Shown here piece after piece: positions 3,330 to 47,310 of a stretch of 64,000 nt of DNA. The DNA is taken from assembly GCF_006385875.1 (NCBI RefSeq), contig NZ_VFSU01000029.1:1-64000 (forward strand). Reading direction: 5' to 3'. This stretch comes from Sandaracinobacter neustonicus. GTDB taxonomy: Bacteria; Pseudomonadota; Alphaproteobacteria; Sphingomonadales; Sphingomonadaceae. The translations under genes were made by a program, and so were the position numbers. The notes beneath the pieces were generated by a model. The model had not been told where the DNA came from, searched no databases, and saw nothing but the letters and a program-made list of their open reading frames with translations. Within the stretch, counting starts at the first letter, position 1, and every line of letters begins with the position of its first letter.

Positions 3330-4498
3330 TTGGCATCACCCTTGAACAGGGATGCGTAGGCGGGATGCCACCCGAGCTTCAGACCGTTCGCCAGATCGTT
3401 GAAAGCTCCGGCGATGAAGTGAGACGGCAGGGTTTGGCCATCCAGCGGGAGCTCAACGGCGGAACACCGCCGATAGACCCGGCGTCCTCGTTCGGGCTCG
3501 CTGAGGCTGGAATCAACATCCTCCACCTCGTCGCGAACCAAAGTGTGCTGGCGAACCAGCTGCCCATCCAGTTCGTCGAATGACTCTGCCACGACCAAGC
3601 CCTCGGCAGCCCATTCTACCTTGTCGGACGTCGTGCGGAGATAGTCGCTCACAGCCGTGGTCAGGAGTTCGCTCGAGGCCTCAATCGCCTGAAGCTGTCG
3701 CACGAAGGTCGGCGAAGTGCTGACGACCATCGCCACCAACTCATCGGCGGGGACGGGGCCCTTAGAGATGAGGTAGCCCGCCAGATTGGACTTGCGGGAG
3801 AAGGCCTGAAACTGCCGACGGAAAATCACCGCCTCGAGCGTCTTGGATCCGCCGTCGCGAAGGAGGCGGTCAAGGCGGTCGCGCGCGATGCCAATAGCCG
3901 CGGCAGTCATGTCATCGACGGCCGCCTGAGGCAGGCCAGCGCGAACAAACTGGCGGACGCCCTCAAGCGCGTCAGCCTCCGAGACAAGGCTGAACCGGGT
4001 GATGATGGCGCTGCAGACGTCCGGCCTCGCCTCAAGAAACCTTCGAATCTGAGGCCCGCAGCCGACGTCCGGCTTCTTGGGATCGATCAGCTTGCCGATC
4101 TTCGCCAACACCGTGGCGCAGGCCGCTGCAGTCGTGGCGGCGCTCATTTCGGCAACGAGCGCGCCGGTCTTCGCTGGCGTGATGAACAGCCGGAAATCCG
4201 TCTTGGCAGGATCGATCATCTTGTCGGTGCAGAGCGTCGCCCAGTTGGCGAAGGTCTTCCAGAGGTCCACAGCCTTGTCGGCCGCCGGGTTCCCTGTGAG
4301 AGTGCTCTTGTCCTGCTCGAGAAGAAGCGAGCCGTCCGCGCGATGAACTGCCACGTCATCGAGCCCCTCAAGGGATACGCTGTCGCCATCGGCCGCAGAG
4401 AACAGGTGGAAGCAGGCGCGTAGTTGCTGAAGCGAGAAACCCAAGTACTGCCCGGCGGCAGAGGTTTTCAGCGGCTTCTCGAGTTCAACCAGGCTCAT
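3326..4498 (-). CDS. ABC-3C system third component (ABC-3C C-terminal-domain protein)
   Basis: A 390-residue protein, first gene of the operon. The N-terminal region ([25 protein letters not shown], residues about 43-68) has the look of the restriction-like 'dsDNA/NAD effector' segment seen in ABC-3C proteins: residues such as EGLDDV, LEQDK and a following helical part. The C-terminal third is the conserved ABC-3C region. It ends in an ATGA overlap with the middle component. Upstream (4499-4813) lie about 300 bp that include an IS481 relic, and the promoter must be there. Which biochemical activity it has (nuclease-like or other) cannot be told from inspection. Confidence 0.75.
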
Positions 4499-4640
4499 GT
4501 GTCTTCCCGCGCGACCGCAGAATCGGTCTAAACTTGTACAGTCTAAACATGCTCTCGCCGAACAGCGAGATCGTTGGTTGTAGAGCGTTGGTCGCTGCCC
4601 GGACTAGACTGTCGACGAAGCCCTGCCGTTCGGCGATGGT

Positions 4641-4703
4641 CCGGACTGCGTGCGTGGTCGTGGCGCTCCCGTGACGAACTTGGCCCATAAGGCTTCCTTC
4701 CAT
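4641..4703 (-). pseudogene. Relic of the 5' end of an IS481-family transposase
   Basis: Residues MGQVRHGSATTTHAVR, encoded from about 4688 to 4641, match what I recall as the conserved N-terminus of a widespread IS481-type transposase, which then continues into a helix-turn-helix. Here the similarity stops after 16 residues and the frame runs into unrelated sequence (TIAERQGFVDSL), so only a scar is left. It sits directly upstream of the ABC-3C operon and suggests that mobile elements delivered or trimmed this island. Confidence 0.5.
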
Positions 4704-4813
4704 TCCAACGAAAGGATCGCACCATCAAAACGTGGGACCAAACACCTAGAGGGCGACTTAAGTTACGTTGAACGGGACTTTCGAGACGATCCACGACATC
4801 CTACGACAGGATC

Positions 4814-6574
4814 ATGAACGCAGCCTCGATCGATTCCGCCGTCTCCCTGGCCTTCAGTCTCCACGCTAACAAGGGCGCCTATGCCCTTCTTGTCGGCTCG
4901 GGCGTCTCGCGCTCGGCTGGCATTCCCACGGGCTGGGAAGTCACGCTCGATCTCGTGCGGCAACTGGCGGCGACCGCGGGCGAAGCGGGCGTTTCCGATC
5001 CCGAGGCCTGGTTCAGGGAGACCTATCGCCAAGAACCCGATTATTCCAATCTCCTCGATCAACTGTTCAAGGTCCAGGCCGAGCGGCAGCAATGTCTCAA
5101 ACGCTATTTCGAACCCGACGCCGACGAGCGCGAGCAGGGTCTGAAAGCACCGACGCCGGCCCACCATGCAATCGCGGACCTCGTCGCGCTCGGCTATGTC
5201 CGCGTGATCGTCACCACCAATTTCGATCGGCTGATCGAGCAAGCGCTCGAAACCCGCGGCGTTGTGCCGGTCATCGTGGCCAACGCCGATCAGGTGGCCG
5301 GCATGCTGCCCCTGGTTCATCAGACCTGTTGCGTCATCAAGGTGCATGGCGACTATCTGGACACCCGCATCAAGAACACCGTGCCGGAGCTGGAAACCTA
5401 TTCGCCGGCGATGGACCGGCTTCTCGATCGCGTGTTCGACGAGTTCGGCCTCATTCTCTGCGGCTGGTCGGGGGCCTGGGACCCCGCCTTGCGATCCGCC
5501 ATCACCCGCGCGCCCAGCCGCCGCTTCGCAAGCTATTGGGCCACGCTGGCGCCCCTGTCCGGAACGGCCGAGACTCTGGCGCGGGATCGAATGATCACGC
5601 CCGTGCCCACGACCGGCGCGGATCGCTTCTTCACGGATCTTGCGGACCGGCTGGCGTCGCTGCAGACCCTGGATCGACCCCATCCCCTATCCGTTCAGGC
5701 AGCGGTCGCTACCCTCAAACGCTATATCGCCGAGGACCGCCATCGCATCCGGCTGCATGACCTGGTCATCGACGCCGTCGATGACGCCCGCGTCCGCTGG
5801 TCGAAAAGCGGCGTCTCGCTTGCCGACCCCCAGCCGACGAATGCGTCGATCCCGGAGCGGATGAAGGCCTATGACGCCAGCCTGGAGACGCTGATCGCCC
5901 TCGGCCTGGAACTTGGGCGCTGGGGGCGCCCCGAACATGCGCGCCTCGTCGCGGAAATGCTCGAGCGGCTTTCTCGTCGCGAGCCGGTCAGGGGCTCCAC
6001 CTATAACCTCTGGTCCGCCCTGTGGCCCTATCCGGCCACCGCCGTCTTCTATGCGGTGGGGCTGGGCGCGCTGGAGGCCGACAATTTCGAACTTCTGGGC
6101 GCTGTCGCAGCGGCCCGGCTAACGACCGAGCGCGGCGAGAAGGCGGGTACGGTCGAGCGGTTGGCGCCGGCGGTCCTGGTGAGCGACAAGTCGAACCTGC
6201 GCGCCTTGTTCAACTCGGATCGCTATACGCCTCTCAACGACTGGCTCTCGCAGCTGTTCCGTCCCCTGGTGGCCCCGCACGCGATCGAGAACGACTATTA
6301 CGACAGCTTCGCGCCGCTGTTCGATCGTCTCGAAATCCTTTTCGCCGTCGCCTATCGCGCCTTCGACAAGGGTGACCGGGGATGGGCCCCGCCGGGCTGC
6401 TGGGCCTGGCGTCATGAGAACCAGCAGAAGATCCAGGAGCAGTTGAAGGGCGAGCTCGGCGCATTGGGCCAACAGGCCCCGCTCATGCGCACGGGGTGGT
6501 TCTCATCGACCGAACAGGCCCAGAAGGTGCTCGAAGAAGTCTACGCGTTCGCAGGCCGCCTGAACTTTCATTGA
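4814..6574 (+). CDS. SIR2-family protein, probable NADase-type defence effector
   Basis: A 586-residue protein with a SIR2 fold in the first 260 residues: nucleotide-binding GSGVSRSAG (28-36), TTNFDRL (134-140), KVHGD with the catalytic-type His at 178, and CGWS (216-219). The remaining 320 residues match no domain I recognise; long SIR2 proteins of this shape with C-terminal extensions are common in bacterial defence islands, where several have been shown to deplete NAD+ on phage infection. There is no signal peptide or membrane segment. The gene stands alone, divergent from the ABC-3C operon and followed by a Fic gene. A deacetylase role is less likely because a classical sirtuin zinc-binding Cys4 is not seen. 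Confidence 0.87.
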   Translation: MNAASIDSAVSLAFSLHANKGAYALLVGSGVSRSAGIPTGWEVTLDLVRQLAATAGEAGVSDPEAWFRETYRQEPDYSNLLDQLFKVQAERQQCLKRYFEPDADEREQGLKAPTPAHHAIADLVALGYVRVIVTTNFDRLIEQALETRGVVPVIVANADQVAGMLPLVHQTCCVIKVHGDYLDTRIKNTVPELETYSPAMDRLLDRVFDEFGLILCGWSGAWDPALRSAITRAPSRRFASYWATLAPLSGTAETLARDRMITPVPTTGADRFFTDLADRLASLQTLDRPHPLSVQAAVATLKRYIAEDRHRIRLHDLVIDAVDDARVRWSKSGVSLADPQPTNASIPERMKAYDASLETLIALGLELGRWGRPEHARLVAEMLERLSRREPVRGSTYNLWSALWPYPATAVFYAVGLGALEADNFELLGAVAAARLTTERGEKAGTVERLAPAVLVSDKSNLRALFNSDRYTPLNDWLSQLFRPLVAPHAIENDYYDSFAPLFDRLEILFAVAYRAFDKGDRGWAPPGCWAWRHENQQKIQEQLKGELGALGQQAPLMRTGWFSSTEQAQKVLEEVYAFAGRLNFH

Positions 6575-6886
6575 AAGCGCGTCCGGGAAGGCGTCCGCGT
6601 CCGCGTTCGCGCCCTACGCCAGTCTTCAAATCGTCGCCTGAAAACGATCGGATATTTCAGCACCGGTGAACAGGATGGCCGAGACGATCCGAGGCCGGCT
6701 GAAACGTGCGTATGGCCGATTATGAGAATGTCGCGGACAAAACGCGCTGCTGCGAGAATTCTACGGACATTTGATGAAGCCTCTTGAGGCTTATGAGAAA
6801 AACTCTTACGAGAGAAATATGGACATTTTGATATTTTGTGAGAGTATATTGGACATCTGACGGGTGTCTCACGCGCTTAGGAGACT
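6575..6886 (+). promoter_or_regulatory. Upstream region of the Fic gene with three GGACATYTGA-like repeats and a perfect palindrome
   Basis: About 310 bp without a gene. The last 130 bp are much more A+T-rich than the surroundings. GGACATTTGA occurs at 6765-6774, GGACATTTTGA at 6821-6831 and GGACATCTGA at 6851-6860. A perfect palindrome AAGCCTC-TT-GAGGCTT lies at 6777-6792. These look like operator copies for a regulator, possibly the N-terminal DNA-binding part of the Fic protein itself. No factor can be named. Confidence 0.45.
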
Positions 6887-8470
6887 GTGGTGGCGGATAT
6901 CATCTTCACGCCCTCAGGCGATGAAGCCTTCGACCGGAAGGTCCGACGCGACCACAAGGCTGGCAAGCTCAATCGCATCGCCAGCGGCATCTATGCGGAA
7001 CCCTCCGCCGAGCCGATCGAGGTCCTGGTTCGTCGAAACTGGTTCAAGATCGTCGGCAAGCTGGTGCCCGATGGGGTCGCGACCGACCGGACCGGCATGG
7101 ACGGCAAGCCCTGGCGAGACGCCTCGTCCGGCGACGTCCAGACGGACGCCTTCGTCTTCATGAGCGCGCCGAGAACCCGAGACATCATCAGGGCGCCGGG
7201 GCTCGTGATCAACTTTCGGGAAGGCAAGGGCCCCGTGGAGGGCGATATTCCGTACCTCGGCACATGGCTGGCGGGCCCTATCCGAAAACTGCTCGACAAC
7301 CTCACGCCGTCACGCGCGACCGGAAGCGGCCCCTCGCGCACGACCGGGGCGGCCGCGGTGGAGGCGCAGCTCGACAGCCTCTGCTCCACCCACGGCGAAG
7401 CCCATCTCAACCACATCCGTGACGCCGCCCGCGACCTCGCCCCCCTCATCGACCGCGAAAAGGAGTTCATCGTGCTGAACAACCTGATCGGGGCTCTGTT
7501 GCGGACCCGGGAGGCGACGGTCTCCACGCGCCAGGGACGGGCCCGGGCCGCGGGGGCTCCCCTCGATCCCCATTGCATCGGGCGGCTCGTGAAACTGGTC
7601 GACTATCTCCAGACCCGCGCGCCGGTCAGCATCCTGAACGCCGACACCACGCCGGAGCGCAAGACCGCCGGCGCCTTCATGGAAGCCTATTTCTCCAACT
7701 TCATTGAAGGCACGGAGTTTCCGGTGGGCGAAGCGGTCGAGATCGTCTTCCAGGGAAAGATGCCTGACGCCCGCCCCGAAGACGGGCACGACATTCTCGG
7801 AACCTATCTCCAGCTCGTCGATCTCGGGGACCGATCGGCCGCGGCGGTGGACGCCGACGCCTTCATCGATGAAATCCAGGAGCGCCATCGGCTCCTGATG
7901 GAGGCGCGACCTTCGGTCAGGCCCGGCCTGTTCAAGACCCGGCCCAACAAGGCCGGCGACACCAGTTTCGTCGCTCCCGACCTGGTGGCGGGCACATTGC
8001 GAGAAGGGATGACGATATTCCGATCGATCTCGGACCCGTTCTCGCGAGCCTTGTTCGTCCATTTCCTGTTGTCGGACGTCCACCCCTTCAATGACGGCAA
8101 CGGCCGGCTCAGCCGCATCATGATGACGAAGGAACTAGCGGCGGCAGGCCTCTCCCGGATCGTCGTCCCGACCGTCTATCGCAACGACTACCTAGACGCG
8201 CTGCGGGCCCTGTCGAGACGCGGAGAGCCTTCGATCTTCGTCCGGGCGCTCGAATTCTGCCAGCGCGTGAGCGCGGCCTGCTCCGCCCCCTCCACGGACG
8301 CGGCGATTGAAGCCTGGGCGCGCGCCTACGCCTTCTGCGAGGACGGACGCCACGCCCGCCTCACGATCCCCGATCCCTCGATTCCAATCGAAACGCGAGG
8401 CGGGGTGTCGGCTCCAGTCGACTACTGGACGTCGATTGATCCGAGCGGAAATCAGCCCTTCAGCCTGTGA
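6887..8470 (+). CDS. Fic-domain protein with an AbiEi-like N-terminal segment
   Basis: A 527-residue protein. The Fic catalytic motif HPFNDGNGR is intact at residues 399-407 (His, Phe, the GNGR loop and a following Arg), so it should transfer AMP or another nucleotide to a protein hydroxyl. An inhibitory-helix motif S-x3-E-G is present at 270-275 (SNFIEG), making it a self-inhibited (class II type) Fic. The first 70 residues (HKAGKLNRIASGIYAEP...VATDRTG) resemble the N-terminal winged helix of AbiEi antitoxins. Two adjacent GTG codons (6887 and 6890) are possible starts; the AGGAG at 6879-6883 is 3 nt before the first and 6 nt before the second, favouring the second. Regulatory repeats lie just upstream. 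It completes the SIR2/ABC-3C island. Confidence 0.88.
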   Translation: MVADIIFTPSGDEAFDRKVRRDHKAGKLNRIASGIYAEPSAEPIEVLVRRNWFKIVGKLVPDGVATDRTGMDGKPWRDASSGDVQTDAFVFMSAPRTRDIIRAPGLVINFREGKGPVEGDIPYLGTWLAGPIRKLLDNLTPSRATGSGPSRTTGAAAVEAQLDSLCSTHGEAHLNHIRDAARDLAPLIDREKEFIVLNNLIGALLRTREATVSTRQGRARAAGAPLDPHCIGRLVKLVDYLQTRAPVSILNADTTPERKTAGAFMEAYFSNFIEGTEFPVGEAVEIVFQGKMPDARPEDGHDILGTYLQLVDLGDRSAAAVDADAFIDEIQERHRLLMEARPSVRPGLFKTRPNKAGDTSFVAPDLVAGTLREGMTIFRSISDPFSRALFVHFLLSDVHPFNDGNGRLSRIMMTKELAAAGLSRIVVPTVYRNDYLDALRALSRRGEPSIFVRALEFCQRVSAACSAPSTDAAIEAWARAYAFCEDGRHARLTIPDPSIPIETRGGVSAPVDYWTSIDPSGNQPFSL

Positions 8471-11866: not shown

Positions 11867-12538
11867 CGGGGCGCCCCGTCTAGGTCATCAGGGGCGGGCG
11901 CCGCCCGATCCTGTTCCGACGATCCGGCGCCCGCGACCGGAATTCCCCGTAGCTGCGCGCGGTCTCGCCCCCACGCCGGCATTTTCTGTGGTCCAGAGGC
12001 TTAACCTCGACAACGCCTGAAACGCGCATACGCAAAATCCTTGTCCGTCGACCCCAATATTCTTCCACATGGCGGCACGGCCGCCCTGTCCTTCCGATCG
12101 CTTCGCCTTCCCCTCCAGACCCCGTTTCTCCTGGCGACCGATCAGCGCAAACTGGTGGGAATAGCCGCGTATCGTGAGGTGACTGTATATCCTGTCAGTA
12201 GAGTATTGCCGATATGCGAAGGGATGAATCGTCACCATTTCCGTGACATCTCCTCGCGTTGCGCCGGTCGGATGATGTGGCGCGAGCGTGTCGCCCGCAC
12301 TCATGTCGTATGGAGCTGCACGGCAAGGGCCGCATCCTGTCGACGGAGTTCAGCCGCGCGGGCCCCGCAGCCTCCGATGTCGCCTCGACCCCGGGGTCTG
12401 GCGTTGCGGGCGAACCGGGATACAATCGGCCGCCCTTCACCGAACACGCCGTCAACGAGGCGGGGACGCCACCAGCTTTTTCTCGCCGTGTCCGGGATCA
12501 AGAAGGCCATCATCATCGTCCCTTGGGAGAGGGCTTCC
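11867..12538. other. Divergent intergenic region between the AraC and sigma-factor genes
   Basis: About 670 bp. Frames are open over long distances on both strands because of the high G+C, but their predicted proteins are Arg/Pro/Ala-rich and show no family pattern. It must hold the promoters of the AraC gene and of the FecI-like operon. I found no clear repeat or RNA gene. Confidence 0.45.
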
Positions 12539-13084
12539 ATGACCGGCAGCGCCGAGCCGACAGTTGACGCCATGGCTGCGCTTCTGGACCGCCGGTTCCG
12601 AAAGCCGCTGATGAGCTATTTCCTGCGGCGCGTTCGCAGTCGCGCCGAGGCCGAGGATCTAACGCAGGATGTGTTCGTTCGCCTGCTCGGCGCCGCCGAA
12701 CGCCGGCCGATCGAGGATGTCGAGGCGCTCGTTTTCGTGACCGCCGCGAACCTCCTCAAGGACCGCGGCCGAACGGCCAAGCGGCGCAGCCAGATCGCCA
12801 TCTCGCCGCTGGACGATGCGACGATCGCAAACCTCAGTCGAGAATTTGTGGAGGATCGGACCCCCGAGCGCGTCTTGCTGGGCAGGGAGTCGATCGTCGG
12901 CATGCTCGCCGCCCTCGACGAACTAGGTGAGAGAACTCGGGACATCTACATCCTCTTCCGACTGGAAAGCATGAAGCAGGCCGAGATTGCGGCCCTGTTG
13001 AACATCAGCCGAAGCACGGTGGAGAAGGAAGTCATGAAGGCGACCCTGCACCTGGCGCTGCGGAACGGCCGAGATCGCCAATGA
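12539..13084 (+). CDS. FecI-like ECF sigma factor
   Basis: A 181-residue ECF sigma factor. Region 2 is seen as LLDRRFRKPLMSYFLRRVRSRAEAEDLTQDVFVRLL and region 4 as LDELGERTRDIYILFRLESMKQAEIAALLNISRSTVEKEV. I used the ATG at 12539, because the frame upstream lacks any family sequence and a purine-rich GGGAGAGGG lies before it. It overlaps the FecR-like anti-sigma gene by ATGA. With the downstream STN-TonB receptor it forms a transenvelope surface-signalling unit, which would turn on receptor expression when its ligand binds outside. The receptor is broken, so signalling is probably lost. Confidence 0.9.
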   Translation: MTGSAEPTVDAMAALLDRRFRKPLMSYFLRRVRSRAEAEDLTQDVFVRLLGAAERRPIEDVEALVFVTAANLLKDRGRTAKRRSQIAISPLDDATIANLSREFVEDRTPERVLLGRESIVGMLAALDELGERTRDIYILFRLESMKQAEIAALLNISRSTVEKEVMKATLHLALRNGRDRQ

Positions 13085-14091
13085 CCACTCCGCCCGACAG
13101 ATCGCCGCAGGACATCGTGCGTCTCGCCGAGGCGTCTGCCTGGCGTGTGCGGTTGACAGAAGACGGACTGGAAAGCTGCGACGCTTTCGAAGACTGGCGG
13201 TCCGATCCTGATAACGCGTCTGCCTGGGAACAGGTTGATGCACCCTGGCGACGGATGGGCGAGGAGGCCACCTCACCCGAGTTGATGGCCGCCCGGGTCG
13301 GCGCCCTCCAGCGCGCACGCCAGGCGGGGCGGAAGCGATGGTCGATGCAGCCGCATATCCTGAGGCTCGTTTCGCCTCTTGCGGTGGCGTTTCTGTTGCT
13401 GGGCGTGCTCGGGTGGCGCTGGGTCGCCCTGCAGCCCGACGTCTATCTGACGGGCCCAGGCGAACGCCGCGTTGTGAAGCTGGTGGACGGCTCCATCGTC
13501 TCGCTCGACTCCACCAGCGAGGTCCGGGTTCACTATACCGATAAGGCGCGCCAGTTGACGCTGGTATCGGGCCAGGCACGGTTCGACGTCGCGCACAATG
13601 CGGACCGTCCCTTCACCGTCACGGCGGGCGCACAGACGGTGGTCGCGACGGGCACAGCCTTCAACATCGACAAGCTCGGCGCCGAGGTACTGGTGACCCT
13701 GCTCGAAGGTCGCGTCACCGTGCTGAATCTGCCCGTCGGAGGGACGCCTTCGGCGCGGGTCGCAGGGCCGATGGCTCTCGCGCCCGGACAACAGGTCGTC
13801 ATTCGACAGACTGCGGATCCCGAGGTGAAATCCGTCAGCGCCAGTCGTGCGACGGCGTGGGAGACCGGCCAGCTCATATTCGAGGACGAACCCCTGTCGG
13901 ACGCCGTCGCCCGGGTCGCCCGATATGGCGGCCGACGCCTGTCGGTCGAGGGCAAGGCGGCCGATCTACGGGTTTCTGGCGTGTTCAAGGCGGGTGACAC
14001 CGCCACCTTCATCGATGCGGTGAGCGCCTATCTCCCGGTCGATGCGACCGCCGACACCAGTGGCGCCATCACGCTTCGGAGCCGTTCCTGA
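13081..14091 (+). CDS. FecR-like anti-sigma factor / sigma regulator
   Basis: A 336-residue inner-membrane protein. The N-terminal DUF4880-type segment (EASAWRVRL...DAFEDWRSDPDNASAWEQVD, residues 17-53) binds the sigma factor. A single membrane helix follows near 95-112 (LAVAFLLLGVLGWRWVAL), then the periplasmic FecR domain (LTGPGERRVVKLVDGSIVSLDSTSEVRV ... GQARFDVAHN ... FTVTAGAQTVVATGTAFNI) and a C-terminal STN-like region. It is coupled to the sigma gene by ATGA and followed after 93 nt by the TonB-dependent receptor. Its partner on the outside would be the N-terminal STN domain of that receptor. Confidence 0.9.
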   Translation: MTTPPDRSPQDIVRLAEASAWRVRLTEDGLESCDAFEDWRSDPDNASAWEQVDAPWRRMGEEATSPELMAARVGALQRARQAGRKRWSMQPHILRLVSPLAVAFLLLGVLGWRWVALQPDVYLTGPGERRVVKLVDGSIVSLDSTSEVRVHYTDKARQLTLVSGQARFDVAHNADRPFTVTAGAQTVVATGTAFNIDKLGAEVLVTLLEGRVTVLNLPVGGTPSARVAGPMALAPGQQVVIRQTADPEVKSVSASRATAWETGQLIFEDEPLSDAVARVARYGGRRLSVEGKAADLRVSGVFKAGDTATFIDAVSAYLPVDATADTSGAITLRSRS

Positions 14092-14184
14092 CAGGCGCGT
14101 GAATTTTATTTTGAGGAAGTGCGTCAGTCGGTCGTCTTTCTCACCCGAGCCCGAATACGGGCCAATCAAATCGGGGTCTCTTTC

Positions 14185-16401
14185 ATGTCTGCTGCAAGAA
14201 AATCCGTCGTGTCCGCGCGGCGCGGCCTGCTGTGTTCGTCGGCAATCGCCGTTGGCCTGGCGCTCGGCGTCATGGGGCCGGGCTCGGTCTCAGCTCAGGA
14301 GCGGACCGCGAGCTATGATATCCAGGGCCAGTCGCTCGCGACGGCGCTTCGCGAGTATGGCCGCCTCTCGGGCGTGCAGATCATCTTTTCGGAAGATCTG
14401 GTGCGCGGTCTTCGCGCGCCGGCCCTGCGAGGCGTGTATTCGGCGACGGACGCGCTTGAGCGATTGCTGGCAGGATCAGGCCTGGTCGCCCGCCGCACCT
14501 CCACGGGCGCAGTGATGATCGTAAGGGAGGGAAGTGGCCCCCAGGGAGAGGGGGCAGCCGCAGGGGATAGCGCGGCGGCCCGGGTCGAGGACGTGGTGGT
14601 GACCGGGAGCCGGATCACGGGCGTTCCACCGTCGTCGCCCGTGCACACCGTTACGCGCTCGGACATTGAGCAAGCCGGTTACGGAACCGTGGGTGACGTC
14701 ATTCGGAGCTTGCCCGAAAATTTCAACGGTGGCCAAAATCCCGGCGTCGTATCTGCTCCCTTAACGCTTCATAATAACACCACGAACAGCACGACAGTAA
14801 ATCTGCGTGGGTTGGGCTCGGATGCGACCTTGGCGCTTCTCAACGGTCGACGCCTGCCGCCGGATGGGTATGGTCAATCCGCTGATATCTCCACGATCCC
14901 GCTCGCAGCGATCCAGCGCGTTGAAGTGCTGACCGACGGCTCGTCCGCGATCTACGGCTCAGACGCCATAGCCGGTGTAGCCAACTTCATATTGAAGACC
15001 CGCTACGATGGCGGAGAAGTGAGTGCACGTGTCGGTGGGGCCACGCAGGGCGGTGGACTTGAGCAGGTCTATTCCGCGCTTGTCGGCAAGACGTTCTCGC
15101 GCTGGCACGCCTTGGCATCTGTCGAGTATCTGAATCGCGAAGCGATCTTCGCCCATCAGCGGGACTTCACGGCTACGGCGCCCGGAGATTCAAATCTGGG
15201 AAGGCAGGAAGAACGGACGTCTGCCATGGTATCCGTCGGCGCCGACATCACCAGTCGACTGTCATTCAATCTGGATGCATTATGGGCACATCGCCGCGCG
15301 ACTTACACGGACCATTACCAAGTCGCGCTTCCCGCCTACCCACACCAGATGGATCTTCCAAGCCACTCGATCGCTGGCGGTTTCAAGTTGGCTTTGCCGC
15401 TCGAATGGAACTTGCGCCTAGATGGCGGCGCTTCGTCCACCGACGCCACGGACATAAGCGGCTACTTAGGTATCGAGTTTAATTACCGTAATGAGACGAA
15501 TTTCGTAGAAGGTCTTGCAGAAGGGACTCTGCTCTCCCTTCCCGGCGGTGCCGTCAAAGTCGCGTTCGGAGGCGGACATCGCAACGAGAGGTTCGTCAGT
15601 GGATACACATTCCTCGGCATGTCGAGGCCGCTCGCCGCAGGTTCCCGAAACATAGATTACTTGTTTGCGGAACTTCGAATACCAGTCGTTTCATCTTATG
15701 ATGATTACGGTACGGGTGGAATGGATTTGAGTTTTTCCGGCCGAATTGAAGAGTATAGCGACTTCGGATCCTCCTCCACGCCGAAAGTAGGTTTGAGATA
15801 CGTTCCCATCCGCGGACTGGCCCTAAGAGGAACGTGGGGGGAGTCATTCAAGGCTCCATCGTTCTGGCAACTCTATACCGGACAATCCGCATATCTTGGA
15901 CTTGCGTCTATCTATGGTGGCATGGGTGGAGGAACCGTTATCCAGGCCAGTGGTGGCAATCCCAATCTGCGACCAGAGCGATCCACATCCTGGACTCTGG
16001 GTGCCGAGTACGAGCCTCCGAAAGTCCCGGGCATGAAGATCGGGGCGACCTATTTCAATATTGACTACACAGATAGGGTTATTACGCCGATCTCCACACT
16101 TACAACCGCGCTTACGGATCCTGCCTTCACCGATTTTATCATTCGAAATCCAACTCCGGCTCAACAGGCAGAAATAATTGGGCGCGCGCCAAGTCTAACA
16201 AACGGCACCGGAGCAACCTACGACCCCTCCTCTGTCATAGCTATCGTATTGCGCTATAACGCAAATGCCGCAGCCTATCAGGTAGAGGGCGTGGACCTCT
16301 CGTACCGTCAGACCTTTAATCTCGCCAAAGGAGAACTGTCGGCATTCGCCAATGCAACCTGGATACAGGTCAAGCAGCAGACATTGCCGACGTTGCCCTT
16401 G
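14185..16401 (+). pseudogene. TonB-dependent receptor with STN domain, C-terminus removed by the IS3 element
   Basis: An outer-membrane receptor. It has a signal peptide (residues 1-38, ending SVSAQ-E), an STN signalling domain (ASYDIQGQSLATALREYGRLSGVQIIF...), a plug domain (VEDVVVTGSRI, LRGLGSDATLALLNGRRLPPDG, VEVLTDGSSAIYGSDAIAGVANFI) and the beginning of the beta-barrel. The natural sequence stops at about residue 739 (FANATWIQVKQQTLPT); the last codons up to 16440 are IS3 end sequence. Receptors of this class run to roughly 900-1000 residues, so the last barrel strands are missing and the protein should not insert properly. FecIR-linked receptors of this kind accompany isopeptidase-type lasso-peptide clusters in related bacteria, and a lasso cluster lies just beyond the IS elements. 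Confidence 0.85.
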
Positions 16402-16475
16402 TGTCCGTCGTCAGAACATTTGGCACAACTCGCGGCGTAAGTTAGCGGAGTGCGGACCTCGTCTGGGGGTTGATG

Positions 16476-17456
16476 TTAGGCGGCGAGCTTGCGGTGTTGC
16501 AAGCGCCGATGTTCGATGGTCTGTCGCTTGATCCTTTCACGTTGTTTGATGATGGCTGGCGCCCTGCCGAAGTAGGCGTCGGCGGGCGTCACGTTGTTCA
16601 GGCTCTCGTGATATCGCTGGTGGTTGTAGTGCTCGACGAAGGCCTCGATCTGGGCTTCAAGGTCGCCGGGCAGGAAGTAGTTCTCGAGCAGGATGCGGTT
16701 CTTCAGAGTCTGGTGCCAGCGCTCGATCTTTCCCTGGGTCTGCGGGTGGCACGGTGCGCCGCGAACGTGGCTCATCTTGTTGGCTTCGATGTATTCCGCC
16801 AGTTCGCCGGCGATGTAGCTGGGGCCGTTATCGCTGAGCAGCCTGGGCTTGTGCAGTACCCTGGCGCTGTCACAGCCCGATGCGGCCAATGCCATGTCCA
16901 GCGTGTCGGTGACGTCCTCGGCGCGCATGTTGGTGCACAGCTTCCAGGCGATGATGTAGCGCGAGAAGTCGTCGAGCACGGTCGACAGGTACATCCAGCC
17001 CCAGCCGATGATCTTGAAGTAGGTAAAGTCAGTCTGCCACATCTCGTTCGGCCGGGTGGTCCTGGTGTGGAACTGATCGGCGGCCTTGATCACGACGTAG
17101 GCCGGGCTGGTGATCAGGCCGTGGGCCTTCAGGAGGCGGTAAACCGTGGCTTCCGATACGAAGTAACGCCTTTCGTCGGTAAAGCGCACTGCCAGCTCCC
17201 GTGGGCTCAGCTCGGACTGCTCCAGCGCCAGTTCGATGATCTGATCATGGATGTCAGGCGGGATCCGGTTCCATACGCGGCTCGGCGTGGATGGCCGATC
17301 TTCCAACGCCTCCGGCCCGCCTTCGAGGAAGCGGTCGTACCAGCGGTAGAACGTCCGACGGGCGATGCCGAGCTTGTCGAGCGTTCGCTTGGCAGGCAGG
17401 TGCGACTGCTCGACGATCCGGATGATCTCGAGCTTCTCGGATGCGGGATACCTCAT
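16476..17456 (-). CDS. IS3-family transposase OrfB (DDE integrase domain)
   Basis: An rve-type integrase with the DDE triad in WQTDFTYFK, LSDNGPSY and KIERWHQTLK. An N-terminal HTH-like region (EKLEIIRIVEQSHLPAKRTLDKLGIARRTFYRWYDRF) precedes it. The ATG at 17456 overlaps the orfA stop. The frame is open upstream to 17528, which permits an OrfAB fusion by -1 frameshifting at the A7 run of the coding strand (17485-17491). Confidence 0.92.
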   Translation of the reverse strand: MRYPASEKLEIIRIVEQSHLPAKRTLDKLGIARRTFYRWYDRFLEGGPEALEDRPSTPSRVWNRIPPDIHDQIIELALEQSELSPRELAVRFTDERRYFVSEATVYRLLKAHGLITSPAYVVIKAADQFHTRTTRPNEMWQTDFTYFKIIGWGWMYLSTVLDDFSRYIIAWKLCTNMRAEDVTDTLDMALAASGCDSARVLHKPRLLSDNGPSYIAGELAEYIEANKMSHVRGAPCHPQTQGKIERWHQTLKNRILLENYFLPGDLEAQIEAFVEHYNHQRYHESLNNVTPADAYFGRAPAIIKQRERIKRQTIEHRRLQHRKLAA

Positions 17457-17839
17457 TCGTCGCCTTCCCCATCCGCGATCATGCTTTTTTTCAGCAGACG
17501 GTTCTCGAGCGTCAGGTCGGCAACGCATTCCTTCAGGGCACGGGCCTCACGGCGCAGGTCCTGCACCTCGCCAGTGGTCGCGGCGCGGGCGGTGTCACCC
17601 GCCAGCCGGCGCTTGCCCGCTTCCATGAACTCCTTCGACCAGGTGTAGTACAGGCTCTGGGCGATGCCTTCCTTGCGGCACAGCTCGGCAATGCTGTCCT
17701 CGCCGCGCAGGCCTTCGAGCACGATGCGGATCTTGTCCTCGGCCGAGAAATGCCGGCGGGTCTGCCGCCGGATGTCCTTCACCACCCGCTCAGCAGGGGC
17801 CTTGGCAGGCGATTTTTTCAAGGAGTGCTGGGGCTTCAT
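17453..17839 (-). CDS. IS3-family transposase OrfA (HTH and leucine zipper), with slippery A7 site
   Basis: About 128 residues from the ATG at 17839 (MKPQHSLKK). The HTH_Tnp_1 segment RRHFSAEDKIRIVLEGLRGEDSIAELCRKEGIAQSLYYTWSKEFMEAG is followed by a leucine-zipper-like helix ending in TLENRLLKKSM. A run of seven A residues in the coding strand, at 17485-17491 of the given strand, lies just before the end. This is a standard IS3 programmed -1 frameshift position that joins OrfA to OrfB through LLKK-KHDRGWG. Confidence 0.9.
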   Translation of the reverse strand: MKPQHSLKKSPAKAPAERVVKDIRRQTRRHFSAEDKIRIVLEGLRGEDSIAELCRKEGIAQSLYYTWSKEFMEAGKRRLAGDTARAATTGEVQDLRREARALKECVADLTLENRLLKKSMIADGEGDE

Positions 17840-17924
17840 CTTCGTTCCTTCGTCACTACGACGAAGCCCCAACACTCCTTAATTCACAACCTCAAATCTG
17901 TGCCATAGGTGCTGACGGGGAACA

Positions 17925-18493
17925 AAGGCAAAGCCCCGGGCATGCGCGTCAAAGAGCATCTCCTGGGTCTCGCGCGGATAGGCCCGCACATACGGCGCCC
18001 GCGACCAGCACAACCGCATATGTGCCACCTTCACCCGCATCGGCTTGCCGGCGATCTCCACGTCCTCGTGGCTCCAATCGAACTGATACGCCTCGCCAGG
18101 TCGGAACATCAGCGGGATGAACACCTTGCTCATATCGCCGCTGTTGGTCCGACGTTCGCGCTTCCAGCGCGCCGCATAGCGCCGAACCGCATCGTAGGAG
18201 CCGGTGAAACCCTCGCGCTCCAGAAGGTCATGTATCCGAGTCAGCCGCAGCCGCTCACGCCGCGGCCGTTCCTCGTTCTGCGCCAACAACTCGTCCAGCC
18301 GTTCGCGAAATGGCCCGGTCTGCGGTCGAGGCTGCTCCTTGCGTTCATAGCTGAAATCCGCCTCCGGCGCACGGATCGCTTTGCGCACCGTGTTGCGCGA
18401 CAACCGTAAATCACGCGCGATCTCTTTGATCGGCTTACCGTCCCTGTGCTCCCGGCGTATCTTGGCAATAGTCTCCACAATCAACATCCCCAT
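17925..18493 (-). pseudogene. istA: IS21-family transposase IstA, truncated
   Basis: About 190 residues remain of a protein of roughly 500. HTH (IVETIAKIRREHRDGKPIKEIARDLRLSRNTVRKAIR) and the start of the integrase core (GEAYQFDWSHEDVEIAG, with the first catalytic Asp in the FDWS context) are present, then PRETQEMLFDAHARGFAF. The next residues (VPRQHLWHRF) are IS3 end sequence. The start is taken at the ATG at 18493; another lies at 18487. Without its other catalytic residues and IstB it is inactive. Confidence 0.8.
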
Positions 18494-18597
18494 CCTCGCA
18501 GCCTGGAAGCCCAAGCCGCGACGCCTCAACTCTGGAATGATGGGGGTCAATTTTAGACGCCGATCACCCCGCTAAGGGGTCAATTTTGCACGCCGCT
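17925..18597 (-). mobile_element. Left part of an IS21-family element, cut by the IS3 element
   Basis: One IS21 end and the first part of istA remain. The end carries two copies of a terminal repeat, GGGGTCAATTTTAGACGCCG at 18543-18562 and GGGGTCAATTTTGCACGCCG at 18576-18595, the multiple-repeat end structure of IS21 elements. The rest of istA, all of istB and the other end are missing. The boundary with the lasso cyclase gene lies at about 18597. Confidence 0.75.
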
Positions 18598-19444
18598 TCA
18601 CAAGAATTCTGGCATAGGCGCGCTCGTCCCCGCTAGCCGAATGCGTCGCCATCGTCATGAGTTGCGTCCGACCACTCCATTGCGCCAGACAGGCGGCGAC
18701 GATCGAGGAATCCAGTCCGCCGGAGACACCGACCAGAATACGGTCGAAACAGCTCGCCCAGGCAGCTATGCATCCCTGCACAAGCTCGTAGAGGCGGGTC
18801 TGTCGCTCCTGATCGCTGAGGTGCAGTTCGGGATCGACGAAATCCCAGGGCGACCAGAACGTGATGACCGCTTCCGAGCCATTGCGGATCGACAGGCCGA
18901 ACCCGGGAAGCACTTCCTTGACGCCCGCAAGGGCGGTTTCGCTTGTTCTGAGAGACGCCGTGGCGAGATAGCGGCGGGCGTGCGGCCATTGAATCTCCGG
19001 CGCGACGCCCGCGACCGCGAACAGCAGCGCGACGCTCGAACTGGCGATGAGCGCAGATCCAACCTTGAGATAGTAACATGGCACAGTCCCCGAAGGATCG
19101 CGAAGGATGCGCACAGCGCGCGAGCCCTTCTCCATTGTGAAGGCGACATATCCACCCCAGAAGTCCGTCGCCAGAGAAGCGCCGCCGGACTCCGCGATCC
19201 GGCGCCCTGCGGGCTCGTCGATCGTAGATAGACGTCTGGGCCGGGTTTCCCGGGAAAATAATGCACCGACGAGCATTCCGCTGGACGGGCCGAGATCCAG
19301 CGTGGAGGCTTCCATAGCTGTAAAGAGAGTGAGATCTCCACGACTGTCGGCTTTGAAAGGCCCGGCGACCCATCGCAATCGATCACCAAATCCTCGACGA
19401 AGACCCGCATCGGAGCAGAGCACAGCGAGATAGGTCGTATCCAC
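18597..19444 (-). pseudogene. Lasso-peptide cyclase (asparagine-synthetase-like), C-terminal half lost to IS21 insertion
   Basis: The first ~283 residues of a lasso-peptide macrolactam synthetase. The N-terminal glutaminase-like domain (WGGYVAFTMEKGSRAVRILRDPSGTVPCYYL) is followed by the AMP-forming core with its pyrophosphate loop SGGLDSS at 241-247. Family members have about 550-620 residues; here IS21 sequence enters after RAYARILVK, adding a short artificial tail before a stop at 18572. The regions that bind the precursor's side chain and complete the active site are absent, so ring closure should not occur. The start is a GTG at 19444 that shares its first G with the TAG of the preceding B gene (TAGTG), so B and C are coupled. 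Confidence 0.88.
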
Positions 19445-20106
19445 TAGATCACCAGAATGGAGGTATAGGGCTGCACATCCTCGATCCCGTCATTCAGGAC
19501 TGTTTCGCCCTGCTGCACCCAACAATGGGCCGAGAAGGGGCTGAGTTGGACACCCACCACCAGATCGGCGACATGCCCATGTCGAAGCAGGTCGTCCATG
19601 AAGGCGATGGAGCGGCGCAGGCAGCGATGATCGTTGGGATAGAATTTTGAAGATGATCGGAACGCCGAGGCGCGTTCGTAAACTGCATGTGCGCTCGCGA
19701 ATTTCCCGCTCTCGATCAGTCTTTTCTTTCTGGAGCGAAGATTGTCCAGAATGGCGTCGATCGAGCTCAGGCGAAGTCTGATCGAGGTCCGCGCATGCTG
19801 AAAGAGAGCGGCCGCCAGAAGCCGGTTCGTGTGCTGCCGCTGCGGCGCTTCGGCTGCTGGCTCAGCTGTAGGCTTTGTATAGATGCGGCGATTATGGCCG
19901 CCCGGGCTCGCCACGAGAACACCGCTTCGAACAAGTGAACCAAGACGTTGCTGCTGGCTTGGACTGATATCGTGACCGCGATCCAGATTCCCGAGGACGT
20001 CGTTCACGGAATCCGGAACCAGAAAATACCTGTCTTTCGGAATGTCGAGAAGGACGGACCTGCCGTCCACAAGCGCCGCATGGATTCCGTTGCGAAGCCT
20101 ATACAT
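19444..20106 (-). CDS. Lasso-peptide B protein: RRE (PqqD-like) plus transglutaminase-like leader peptidase
   Basis: A 220-residue fused B1-B2 protein. Residues 1-80 are a PqqD-like recognition domain that should bind the precursor's leader (VDGRSVLLDIPKDRYFLVPDSVNDVLG). Residues 90-220 are the transglutaminase-like cysteine protease with the family's Cys-His-Asp triad at C162 (HRCLRRS), H194 (SAHCWVQ) and D206 (LNDG). It would cleave the leader after the penultimate-Thr motif and hand the core to the cyclase. The gene appears intact and lies 83 nt after the precursor gene, with a strong hairpin in the gap, and is coupled to the truncated cyclase gene. The proteobacterial A-B-C order is as in microcin J25. 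Confidence 0.9.
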   Translation of the reverse strand: MYRLRNGIHAALVDGRSVLLDIPKDRYFLVPDSVNDVLGNLDRGHDISPSQQQRLGSLVRSGVLVASPGGHNRRIYTKPTAEPAAEAPQRQHTNRLLAAALFQHARTSIRLRLSSIDAILDNLRSRKKRLIESGKFASAHAVYERASAFRSSSKFYPNDHRCLRRSIAFMDDLLRHGHVADLVVGVQLSPFSAHCWVQQGETVLNDGIEDVQPYTSILVI

Positions 20107-20146
20107 CGCTTATTGCCTTGATCGTGGGTAGAGGCCGGCTTGAAGG

Positions 20147-20175
20147 CTGGGGCGCATCGAACCGATACGCCCCAG
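20147..20175 (-). promoter_or_regulatory. Strong stem-loop between lasso precursor and B gene
   Basis: In the transcribed strand, CTGGGGCGTATCG and CGATGCGCCCCAG pair over 13 bp with one G-U wobble and a 3-nt loop. There is no T-run after it, so it is more likely to shield or attenuate (raising precursor over enzyme mRNA) than to terminate fully. Stem-loops in this position are common in proteobacterial lasso clusters. Confidence 0.7.
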
Positions 20176-20189
20176 ACCCGCAGGCGCGT

Positions 20190-20327
20190 TCAGTCGTCGG
20201 AAAGGCCGAGTTCAGGACGACGACCATTATCAATGTCAGCGCCGGGGAACTCAGTGTCCCCCTTGGTCTGGTCGGTGAAAGCGCCCAGGTCGATCAGGTC
20301 GTCTTCGAAATGCTCACGCGTGTTCAT
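20190..20327 (-). CDS. Lasso-peptide precursor (A), 45 residues
   Basis: A 45-residue precursor. The leader has 22 residues and contains the typical DDLIDLGAFTDQTK end, with Thr at the penultimate position (T21-K22) before the cut. The core begins with Gly (G23) and runs 23 residues, starting GDTEFPGADIDNG and ending in PELGLSDD. Core position 9 is Asp, giving a Gly1-Asp9 nine-residue macrolactam ring; Glu4 would be too close. The two Arg at core 14-15 or the bulky residues Leu18/Leu20 are possible plugs. The ribosome-binding site GGGAG lies 7 nt before the ATG. The family is known; I do not recognise this core sequence. The cyclase is broken, so the mature peptide is probably not made here. 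Confidence 0.88.
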   Translation of the reverse strand: MNTREHFEDDLIDLGAFTDQTKGDTEFPGADIDNGRRPELGLSDD

Positions 20328-20715
20328 TGTACGTCTCCCTCATCAGGCAATCGCCATGACCAGTTCATGGCGTGAGGAAAGTATGACTCGCATGTGAGTA
20401 GAGGTAAAATTCGCGCCACGTTCATCATTGGCCCGAATCCTGTTGGAATCCGGGCAGTATTTTTTGAGGCCAACTTTCATCACGGGCAGTTGATTGTTTG
20501 TGATTATTGATGATCTGCGATGATGTATTGATAGAATGGGCAATGGCAACGGCGCGACTCTCGTCACGTTGCTTGAGCCTTTGCGGTCCGGTGGACCGCC
20601 TGGATGGCGGAGCGGGCGCGCATAGCTGATCCATACCGCCTCATGATGTGAGAGCAGAATACCACTCTAGGGCGGCTTCGACTTTACGAATCTTCCGGTG
20701 CGGCGATTTCGGCCA
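20328..20715. promoter_or_regulatory. Upstream region of the lasso cluster
   Basis: About 390 bp with no gene; the promoter of the minus-strand lasso operon must be here. An A+T-rich stretch at 20480-20545 holds several TTGAT/TGATGAT repeats. A hairpin GCCCG...CGGGC at 20431-20455 is followed by a T-run to 20465 and resembles a terminator for plus-strand transcription, although no plus-strand gene precedes it. It may protect the cluster from antisense reading. Confidence 0.45.
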
Positions 20716-21360
20716 TCAAATGACCTGACCTTGCCCGGGCCCGGGGGCAGGACCGCGTGCGCGCAGCCGGGCCAGATCCGCGACGGCCAGCAGCCGGCGA
20801 TCGCGGTGGCGGATCAGCAGGGGAATGAGGCGTTCGGGATCCGATGCCATATCGACCAGTCCGGCCAGCTCCTCTTCGCCGTCTTCGAACAGATGACCCT
20901 CAAGACATCGGACCGCCCTGAGCCGGTCGTTGGCATGGGCCATCGCAACCTCGCACTCGTCGATTTCCGGCAGTGACGCCAGCCGCTCGAAAAACGCCTC
21001 GGTCCGATGCACCAGCCCTGGACCGTCCGCTGTCGGGAAATGGGTTACCTCCGGCTCCGGACCGATCAGCGGCGCCGCGTTGCGGACGGCGAGAATGGCC
21101 AGCGCACAGGCCCAGCGATAGCTGGCCCTGAGATGCGCCTCGTCAGCCGGCGGCGCATGAAAGCCTTCGGTTCGGCTGCCCGCCACCAGCCCCTCGGCCG
21201 CCAGGCGGCGCAGGGCGTTGTAGACTGTCGTCTCGCTGGCGTCCGCGTCCGCCGCCAGCTGCCCCGGATTCAGTCGCTGGCCGGGCCGACAGGCGCAACT
21301 CGTCACCTGCGCCTTGATCAGCCGATAGACCTGTCCGCCGATGGTGTCCTGCTCGTACAT
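20716..21360 (-). CDS. GntR-family transcriptional regulator
   Basis: About 214 residues. The N-terminal winged helix is GQVYRLIKAQVTSCACRPGQRLNPGQLAADADASETTVYNALRRLAAEGLVAGSRTEGF, and a helical FCD-like effector domain follows. The ATG at 21360 is preferred over the one at 21369. GntR-type regulators occur next to isopeptidase-type lasso clusters in sphingomonads, which fits its position upstream of the precursor on the same strand. It could equally regulate the ABC transporter gene 180 bp upstream. Confidence 0.8.
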   Translation of the reverse strand: MYEQDTIGGQVYRLIKAQVTSCACRPGQRLNPGQLAADADASETTVYNALRRLAAEGLVAGSRTEGFHAPPADEAHLRASYRWACALAILAVRNAAPLIGPEPEVTHFPTADGPGLVHRTEAFFERLASLPEIDECEVAMAHANDRLRAVRCLEGHLFEDGEEELAGLVDMASDPERLIPLLIRHRDRRLLAVADLARLRARGPAPGPGQGQVI

Positions 21361-21539
21361 GGCCCGCACTCCGGGCCGGCAAGATACGCCGCCGGCCCCG
21401 TGATCGACCCTGAAACCTCAGTCCACACGCCGGCATCCTCCTGTCGGCTCGGTCCTCATTCTAGCGATAGGGGCTGGTCCCGGCTTTACCGATCCTCCGA
21501 TGCGGCGCCGTTCGACCCGGTACTTCGCGCCCCCACCGG

Positions 21540-23264
21540 TCAGGCCGCCGCGTCCCCACCGCAAAAGGCTCGATAGGCCGCGTCTATCTCAAGCAGCGCC
21601 GCATGCCGGCCGGCCGTCAGACGGCCGTCGCGCATGAAGATGACCTGATCGGCGCTGCGCGCCAGCTCGAGACGATGGGTGACCAGAACGAGCGTCGTGA
21701 CGCCCGCATGCCGCGCCCGGAGCGCGCCGATCGCGCGGGCCTCGGCTGGCGCGTCGAGGGACGATGTGGTCTCATCCAAGATGATCGCCGACGCCCGCAC
21801 CCCCATCAGCCGCGCCAGTTCCAGCTTCTGCACCTGGCCGCCCGATAGCCGTTCGCCCTGTTCGCCGACCGCCAGTCCGAAATCCACCGGCCGGCCGTCC
21901 TCATAGAAGCACCAATCCTCCAGCAAGGCCCTGAGCGCCGCTTCGTCGTGACGCGTTGGCGGATAGAGGGCGTTGTCGCCTAGGCTGCGGTTGAACAGGC
22001 CAATGAACTGCGGAACGTAGAGGACGCGCGCATAGCGCTCCGCCTCGTCGATGGCCTCCATCTCCACCCCGTCCACCCGCACGCGCCCCTCGCTCGGCGA
22101 CAGCAGGCCGGCGATCATCCGGGCCAGCGTCGACTTGCCTGCGCCGTTGGGCCCGGCCACGACCACGAACGATCCCGGCGCGATCTCGGCATGGACATCG
22201 CGAAGCACCCATTGGCTGCCGTAGCGAAATCCGGCCCCGTCGATCGTGATCGCGGCGGCCGTCGTCGGGATCGTCGCAGGGGAGGACCGGCTCTCGCGCC
22301 CGACCAGGGCGAGCACATCGCCGATATTCGCGATCGCCACCCCGGACTGCCGCAGGATGAAGCCGAGGCCGCCGAGCGGAAGGGCCAGCCGGAACGCATA
22401 GGCCTGCAGCAGCACGAAATCGCCGACCGAGATCGCGCCATGCGCCGCGTCCAGGCCGGCGAGTCCCAGAAGAAGGAAAAGGCCCACGCCCGCCACCAGA
22501 TACTGCGCGCCCGCCGTATGGACGAGCAGCCAGGCCAGCCGCTCGGCCGAGGCCTGTCGCGCCCGGCCCTCGTGCGCGACGAGGCGGATCTCGCCTTCGA
22601 CATTGCCGTTGAACACCACCCGGCGCGCATTGCGCAACACGTCGCCGAGCGCCTGAGACACCGAAGCCGCCGCCCGGTTCGTCGCCTCCGCCTGCGCCTG
22701 GAACCGGCGGGCGCTCAGCCGTGTCGCCCCGTAGTAGCCGACCAGCACCACGATCATCAGCACCACATAGGGCGGCGGAGCCAGGGTCGCGATCACCGCC
22801 AGCGACACAGCGATCTGGATCAGGAGCGGCGCCACCCGTCCCATCAGCCCGTCCACGACAAGCTGGAGACTGAAGGGCAGCCGCTCGAGCATGCCCAGCA
22901 GCCGCCCGCTGTCCGCCTCCCGTTCACGCGCGATCTTCGGCAGATGTCCCGTCAGCGCGCCCTCGATCAGGCGCCGGGCGAGACCGTTGATGATCCTGGT
23001 GGTGAAGACATATTTCCAGGCCGCGGTCAGGTTGGTACCCGACCAGACGAGTACGAAGGCCGCGACCAGCAGCAGGAATGGGAAAGGTGAAACCTGGCCC
23101 GCCGACAGGCTGTCGACCACCAGCTTCAGCAGATAGGGTCCGAGAACACCCAGTCCGATGCCCAGCACCTCGATCATCGTGCTCGCCGCCACATCCGCGC
23201 GCAGCCCGAGCGTGCGATCGGCCATGAGCCGCAGCAGCGAGCGGAAGACGGCGAAGGTCGGCAT
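21540..23264 (-). CDS. ABC exporter, fused membrane and ATPase domains
   Basis: A 574-residue half-transporter. About six hydrophobic segments in the first 310 residues form the membrane domain (for example FPFLLLVAAFVLVWSG, VVLMIVVLVGYYGA). The ATPase has Walker A GPNGAGKST, signature LSGGQVQKLELARLM, and Walker B SAIILDETTSSLD. It should work as a homodimer exporting a peptide, lipid or drug. As an McjD-like exporter it could serve the lasso peptide, but its position beyond the GntR gene and after module copy B does not prove it. There is no peptidase domain. Confidence 0.85.
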   Translation of the reverse strand: MPTFAVFRSLLRLMADRTLGLRADVAASTMIEVLGIGLGVLGPYLLKLVVDSLSAGQVSPFPFLLLVAAFVLVWSGTNLTAAWKYVFTTRIINGLARRLIEGALTGHLPKIAREREADSGRLLGMLERLPFSLQLVVDGLMGRVAPLLIQIAVSLAVIATLAPPPYVVLMIVVLVGYYGATRLSARRFQAQAEATNRAAASVSQALGDVLRNARRVVFNGNVEGEIRLVAHEGRARQASAERLAWLLVHTAGAQYLVAGVGLFLLLGLAGLDAAHGAISVGDFVLLQAYAFRLALPLGGLGFILRQSGVAIANIGDVLALVGRESRSSPATIPTTAAAITIDGAGFRYGSQWVLRDVHAEIAPGSFVVVAGPNGAGKSTLARMIAGLLSPSEGRVRVDGVEMEAIDEAERYARVLYVPQFIGLFNRSLGDNALYPPTRHDEAALRALLEDWCFYEDGRPVDFGLAVGEQGERLSGGQVQKLELARLMGVRASAIILDETTSSLDAPAEARAIGALRARHAGVTTLVLVTHRLELARSADQVIFMRDGRLTAGRHAALLEIDAAYRAFCGGDAAA

Positions 23265-46207: not shown

Positions 46208-46211
46208 TCCG

Positions 46212-46298: not shown

Positions 46299-46361
46299 CA
46301 TCATGCGAGCGGCTTGGGAGGTCGCTGGCCAGCCAGATTGCCATGCGGTGCGAAGGCATTC

Positions 46362-47219: not shown

Positions 47220-47310
47220 GGGAGAGCGCTGACGTCGTGACCGCAGCCTTGATGCATCCAGAGATTGCTTTAGCGTGGCCGCAGCCTGCCTTGTGTTGCA
47301 AAGAGAGTTT

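Follow-up and report, generated by a model that had tools for sequence, protein, structure and literature searches.

The window analyzed here, meaning the whole stretch of 64,000 nucleotides from contig NZ_VFSU01000029.1 of Sandaracinobacter neustonicus, contains two sets of lasso-peptide-related genes that face each other across two adjoining insertion sequences (ISs) (Table 1). On the minus strand, a GntR-family regulator gene is followed by the genes for a lasso precursor (A), a B protein, and the N-terminal part of a cyclase (C), and an ABC exporter gene lies behind the regulator gene in the same direction. On the plus strand, the genes for a FecI-type sigma factor, a FecR-type anti-sigma factor, and a TonB-dependent receptor approach from the other side; the true start of the FecI gene is probably inside the annotated ORF. 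An earlier reading of this DNA, made from the sequence alone (hereafter the sequence-only reading), had described the precursor, B protein, and cyclase in this order on the minus strand, with the cyclase gene coupled to the B gene. Matches to the Subterisin, benenodin, lasso_biosyn_B2, and Asn_synthase profiles bear this order out, and the coupling takes the form of a one-base overlap.

Table 1. Features of the lasso-related region of the window, with the precursor of the second system on contig C17.
Feature	Position	Strand	Evidence or remark
FecI-type sigma factor	12041-13084	+	Sigma70_r2 and r4_2; tblastn match to lasso-linked FecI
FecR-type anti-sigma factor	13081-14091	+	PF04773, E=9.4e-22
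TonB-dependent receptor, 761 codons retained	14119-16401	+	Pfam Plug, TonB_dep_Rec_b-barrel, STN
Complete IS3 element	16402-17924	-	NF033516 transpos_IS3; ends as in other genomic copies
IS3 orfB	16476-17528	-	Frame overlapping orfA
IS3 orfA	17453-17875	-	Frame overlapping orfB
IS21 (ISSsp4-like) stub	17925-18602	-	Similarity to plasmid elements; terminus with repeats and istA start; istB and the remainder of istA missing
Cyclase C, N-terminal 281 residues	18603-19444	-	Asn_synthase match; native part ends ...AYARIL
B protein, 220 aa	19444-20106	-	lasso_biosyn_B2 NF033537, E=3.7e-21 (above cut-off); Transglut_core3, E=7.1e-19
Lasso precursor A, 45 aa	20190-20327	-	Pfam Subterisin, E=1.9e-13; NCBIfam benenodin, E=1.1e-9 (both above cut-off)
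GntR-family regulator	20716-21369	-	PF00392, E=1e-8
ABC exporter, 574 aa, possible lasso D protein	21540-23264	-	ABC_tran
C17 precursor	21293-21406 of C17		Predicted core GVGEFPTDEIRGNPLSGLSDD

The precursor is predicted to consist of a 22-aa leader with Thr at position -2 and the core GDTEFPGADIDNGRRPELGLSDD, in which the ring would be closed between Gly1 and Asp9. The Thr and Gly were invariant across an alignment of 10 precursors, and the window precursor thus combines the features of the subterisin/benenodin family, namely the profile match, Thr at -2, Gly1, and an Asp or Glu at ring position 7-9 (here the predicted Asp9). The N-terminal part of the B protein is, we assume, the leader-binding part and the remainder the B2 leader peptidase. 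In an alignment of seven B proteins, Cys162 and His194 were invariant and the Asp (206) was present in six, so the Cys-His-Asp triad that had been read from the letters accompanies the B2 peptidase profile. A search of solved structures returned no close match for either the precursor or the B protein.

The cyclase gene is only half present. Its ORF (18572-19444, minus strand, 290 aa) shares its last native codon with the IS21 and then continues into that element as far as 18572; the cut, which the sequence-only reading had placed at about residue 283, is indeed there, with codon 281 as the exact point. The Asn_synthase profile was matched at positions 20-68 of 354 only, so that the synthetase domain is gone beyond its first ~50 positions, and the 281 native residues compare with the ~580-600 aa of a full-length, Asn-synthase-like lasso cyclase. 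In a family search with the fragment, the matches at E<=1e-24 stopped at residues 279-286, although the open frames of the matched proteins were mostly longer than 570 aa. Profile models, for which the earlier reading had called as a check on lasso homology, matched the B protein and the N-terminal part of the cyclase alike, and this N-terminal half is homologous to lasso-linked cyclases. Solved structures gave only weak matches of the beta-lactam-synthetase-like type. The fragment as the remnant of an ordinary asparagine synthetase was ruled out by the adjoining B2 protein and precursor and by its matches to cyclases adjacent to B genes. Among the 32 loci returned as best matches (the weak L007 excluded), a B protein lay beside the cyclase in all 32, one of them (L012) being matched partly, and in 27 an unbroken cyclase match reached residue 581 of 590 or beyond. 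The other five were the window, L013 (cut by a contig end), L018 (two pieces), and L033 and L035, which stop early. The cyclases of L018, L033, and L035 appear split or cut short at places other than contig ends, and decay of such lasso clusters may be common.

The IS21 homology ends precisely where the cyclase begins. Most of the listed matches to sphingomonad plasmid elements started at 17925-17928 and ended at 18602, the last base ahead of the cyclase sequence, and three ran 1-4 bases further (to 18606 at most). The element end consists of TGT and two CGGCGT..AAAATTGACCCC repeats. Among the matches listed, the stub was ~90% identical to ISSsp4-like plasmid elements in four records, including plasmids of Sphingobium sp. 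TKS and Sphingomonas sp. MM-1, and 75-81% identical in most others, with ~80% identity to one element annotated as belonging to the ISSsp4 family. Two whole relatives examined in Sphingobium sp. TKS have both istA and istB, whereas the remaining 678 bp here hold one end and the N-terminal part of istA, with no istB. The matches listed, for which 40 of 102 candidates were scored, include no further copy of the IS21 in the genome, and a candidate surviving IstB, the sole match to the IstB profile in the assembly (contig C21, above cut-off), proved to be DnaA.

The adjoining IS3, in contrast to the stub, is complete, with overlapping frames and TGT ends. It abuts the IS21 stub on one side and the receptor gene on the other, and no target duplication was found when both flanks were read, which the deletion proposed below would explain. 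The genome contains 15 other strong IS3 matches, all at contig ends and 90-94% identical to the window copy, and one further match that is a 102-bp piece; the other copies were 97.7-100% identical among themselves in the pairs listed. The sequence-only reading had attributed the damage to an insertion of IS21 in the cyclase. The IS21 end does lie at the cut, but the element is a mere stub, and the break also involves a complete IS3 and a truncated TonB receptor. Measured against the receptor of Sandaracinobacteroides hominis, the C-terminal ~120-126 residues are gone beyond the IS3 boundary.

To see what a window cluster of this kind normally contains, other loci were compared. In a tblastn search of the window proteins against 11 fetched loci, one of which was the strain's own C17 locus, B and C were found in all 11, the receptor in nine, FecI in eight, FecR in seven, and GntR in four, whereas the window ABC protein was found in none. 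The GntR protein of the window was 30-37% identical to those beside B in these four loci. The layout, in which GntR precedes the precursor and a FecI-FecR-TonB receptor module faces these genes, is that of isopeptidase-type clusters, in the window with a truncated receptor. The gap between receptor and cyclase was then measured after L055 (a split locus) and L067 (a contig end) had been dropped and three annotated plasmid records added, giving 12 rows, 11 of them distinct (L066 being the same as L096). A homologue of the isopeptidase lay between receptor and cyclase in all 12 rows; its identity to the query was 26-28% in three (L057, L064, and L097) and 44-100% in the others. By annotation or profile, the intervening protein is an Atxe2 lasso isopeptidase in L056, L060, L096, and L110 and belongs to the prolyl oligopeptidase family in L097. 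The points nearest the two breaks of the window are 3382-3500 bp apart in 10 rows, 4620 bp in L060, and 6173 bp in L059, these values being approximate because the points are the ends of BLAST matches. No Atxe2-family isopeptidase lies between cyclase and receptor in the window. Because the isopeptidase is absent here and its homologue is present in every comparison row, we classify the window as the remnant of an isopeptidase-type cluster, and from these homologues and the break-point distances it most likely lost ~3.4 kb of ancestral sequence, in the place of which the IS3 and the IS21 stub now stand. Missing are the C-terminal half of the cyclase, the isopeptidase, and the C-terminus of the receptor.

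An example from the closest known systems is the cluster on the Sphingomonas paeninsulae plasmid NZ_CP032828.1, which belongs to the isopeptidase type (benenodin, subterisin, sphingocin) and, like the window, has GntR, a benenodin-family precursor, B2, cyclase, and a facing TonB receptor, FecR, and sigma factor. Unlike the window, it has an Atxe2 isopeptidase in between, whereas in the window IS3 and IS21 replace the lost parts and an ABC exporter gene lies upstream. A similar layout, together with the phenotype of a B-gene mutant, is given for the sphingocin cluster in the portion of the report consulted (PMC11006600). The sequence-only reading had noted that an intact close relative would supply the ancestral cluster, but no intact version of the window cluster was found in the genus, the family sample, the genome contigs, or the plasmid records. 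Cyclase matches occurred in two of the five other genomes of the genus (35% and 23% identical), the best other cyclases among 397 sampled genomes of the family were 42-44% identical, and the 24 plasmid records that matched were all below 60%; a scan of genome contigs with the fragment confirmed no relative. Literature searches found no papers on lasso peptides in Sandaracinobacteroides and, in the titles and abstract openings of the matches listed, no case of a lasso cluster broken by insertion sequences.

Taken together, the region is very probably a dead remnant of an isopeptidase-type (subterisin/benenodin-like) lasso cluster, broken by IS21 and an IS3-associated deletion. To judge from the relatives, the ancestral layout would have had the sigma/anti-sigma and receptor genes on one strand, the regulator, precursor, B, and cyclase genes converging on them, and the isopeptidase gene between. 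IS21 would have inserted in cyclase codon 281, where its end is visible, and a later IS3-associated deletion would have taken the rest of IS21, the C-terminal half of the cyclase, the isopeptidase, and the C-terminus of the receptor. The losses themselves are seen as absences; the order, IS21 before IS3, and the mechanism are what we infer from the arrangement. The truncated cyclase, without most of its synthetase domain, should not close the ring, and the truncated receptor is not expected to build a complete barrel. Expression of the precursor and B protein may persist, but the window locus would be expected to make no lasso peptide. The earlier suggestion of leader cleavage without ring closure fits insofar as ring closure appears to be lost, but it is too small a picture, the isopeptidase and the receptor C-terminus being missing too.

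For the deletion step there is a variant to which we give, tentatively, a fair but less than even chance: the receptor gene and the IS21 would each have carried an IS3 copy, and these two would have recombined, whereas the other route is a deletion to one side of a lone IS3. Such an event would leave one IS3 with unlike flanks, as seen here, and IS3 copies are many in this genome, but the divergent IS3 type would have to have been present twice, and the matches show it only once.

The damage had also been called probably recent, with which our results are compatible, although the test is a weak one. Among the positions that were the same in at least 90% of the other proteins, none of 29 was altered in the cyclase fragment, whereas four of 23 were altered in the B protein, the second-highest value among 31 proteins (L012 was left out for B and L036 for C on coverage grounds). 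The unchanged cyclase remnant fits a recent event and would also fit continued use, and the B result speaks slightly against recent loss; the overall fit with a recent loss is weak.

The genome, a 3.65-Mb draft in 34 contigs that is given as 99.42% complete, contains another lasso system, which lies on contig C17. A profile built from nine cyclase C-terminal halves, used for the genome search that the sequence-only reading had proposed, matched only C17:22970-23881 in the assembly, that is, the half belonging to the C17 cyclase itself; extra partial PF00733 matches on C10 and C26 were QueC and MnmA, so the missing half was rejected as lying elsewhere in the assembly. The same reading had allowed for an intact cyclase elsewhere, and the C17 protein is one: it is full-length (586 aa), 33% identical to that of the window and 86% identical to that of S. 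hominis SZY PN-1. C17 also has a B protein, GntR, a receptor, FecR, and FecI, and carries the sole isopeptidase in the genome above the Atxe2-family cut-off (45881-47779), which covers the whole profile and whose last residues are unlike those of the S. hominis protein. The distance from cyclase to isopeptidase on C17 is ~22 kb and includes genes for a heavy-metal P-type ATPase, a multicopper oxidase, and an AcrB-type pump, versus 1.2 kb in S. hominis (L060), where genes for an Xre-type antitoxin and a RES-domain toxin (L060:7617-8695) lie between the two. The C17 receptor is readable in two frames, which may reflect a break in this gene as well or a sequencing error. The precursor, B protein, cyclase, and isopeptidase of C17 are apparently complete, and this system is probably the working one, able to make its own peptide. 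An acyl-homoserine-lactone synthase-like gene lies upstream of the C17 cluster (L055:6018-6659), and the S. paeninsulae cluster has a LuxR-type regulator and an acyl-homoserine-lactone synthase upstream; quorum control of these lasso clusters is possible.

With both the window precursor and B protein intact and a whole cyclase in the same genome, the half-cluster might still function in part, either by yielding a cleaved linear core or by having its ring closed in trans by the C17 cyclase, and the two predicted cores both end in GLSDD and have EFP in common. We consider this unlikely, however, as the two cyclases are 33% identical, the precursors differ in their predicted ring residues and share 49% identity, the window locus has lost its isopeptidase and a full receptor, and isopeptidases are reported to be narrow in their choice of substrate in the part of a 2022 review consulted here (PMC9266682). 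An artefact, in which IS elements led to a false join of two loci and an intact cyclase remains in an unassembled stretch, is conceivable in a 34-contig draft that IS3 did break at all 15 other strong matches, but highly improbable, since the window IS3 is distinguishable from those copies by its lower identity to them, neither the missing half of the cyclase nor IstB nor another Atxe2-family isopeptidase of this kind beyond that of C17 occurs elsewhere in the nearly complete assembly, and the listed matches hold no other copy of the IS21. The dead remnant of an isopeptidase-type cluster remains the preferred reading. For the most part, this is ordinary gene loss by insertion elements in a lasso family that was already known, but in a strain with one dead and one apparently working system, the dead one amounts to a natural loss-of-function case. 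The role of this class of peptides is called enigmatic in the consulted text of the same review (PMC9266682).

The ABC exporter is a further difference between the window and these clusters, and it is possibly a lasso D protein that would export the peptide. As far as the consulted sections of the review go, isopeptidase-type clusters are without ABC transporters, the rubrinodin cluster being the one reported exception (PMC9266682), to which the window can be likened by this published description. McjD was absent from the best 60 of 239 solved-structure matches for the ABC protein. In the family search, which scored ~3 candidates per genome out of 30-90, one other of the 397 genomes (G148) had a relative at E<=1e-60 (48% identical). 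No lasso gene lay beside it within the 19.5 kb fetched, and a lasso locus is 25-34 kb away, with 14.5 kb between them unread; the relative adjoins two small genes that resemble a toxin-antitoxin pair by eye and have no Pfam match. Among 72,556 plasmid records, the sole relative at E<=1e-35 was on pASDW145_2 of Asticcacaulis sp. DW145 (52.6% identical), where the ABC gene lies between two complete isopeptidase-type lasso clusters facing away from it (L110:1-21095). There it sits between two FecI genes, whereas that of the window is behind GntR. The two DW145 clusters were 43% and 41% identical to the window in the receptors, 41% and 39% in FecR, and 40% and 40% in FecI, and the window receptor was 35-39% identical to 12 other receptors. 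In the receptor tree, the window and the two DW145 receptors were split from the rest at 100/100, the DW145 pair being the only rows from outside the family and, with L058, flagged for odd letter make-up. The cyclases of DW145 were 35-36% identical to that of the window, and the tree of cyclase N-terminal halves, contrary to the receptor tree, was unresolved and did not join the two. In two precursor-like frames of DW145, core position 9 is Asp and F-D comes next, comparable with Asp9 followed by I-D in the window (a D-x-D pattern); the second DW145 cluster has two precursor-like frames.

Because the strong plasmid relative of the ABC gene lies between lasso clusters and the receptors group together, there is close to an even chance, though not quite one, that the ancestor of the window cluster was a mixed ABC-plus-isopeptidase cluster, as in rubrinodin, forming a separate subclass with the DW145 plasmid locus, marked by related receptors, sigma/anti-sigma pairs, and exporters and by a Gly1-Asp9 ring with the D-x-D pattern. 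If so, the reported exclusion of ABC transporters from isopeptidase-type clusters would be a matter of sampling, and an export route for these peptides would be at hand; the window exporter and its DW145 counterpart point to little-noticed isopeptidase-type clusters with an ABC transporter.

Elsewhere in the window, a defence-like run at 874-8470 comprises a DUF3732 protein, an ABC-3C CTD7 protein, a SIR2-like protein, and a Fic protein. Positions 55600-60950 are similar to an error-prone DNA polymerase/polymerase Y/ImuA cassette, which is followed by a gene for a TraG/VirD4-type coupling protein (61408-63438); because of this succession, the contig may be a plasmid or an integrative element.
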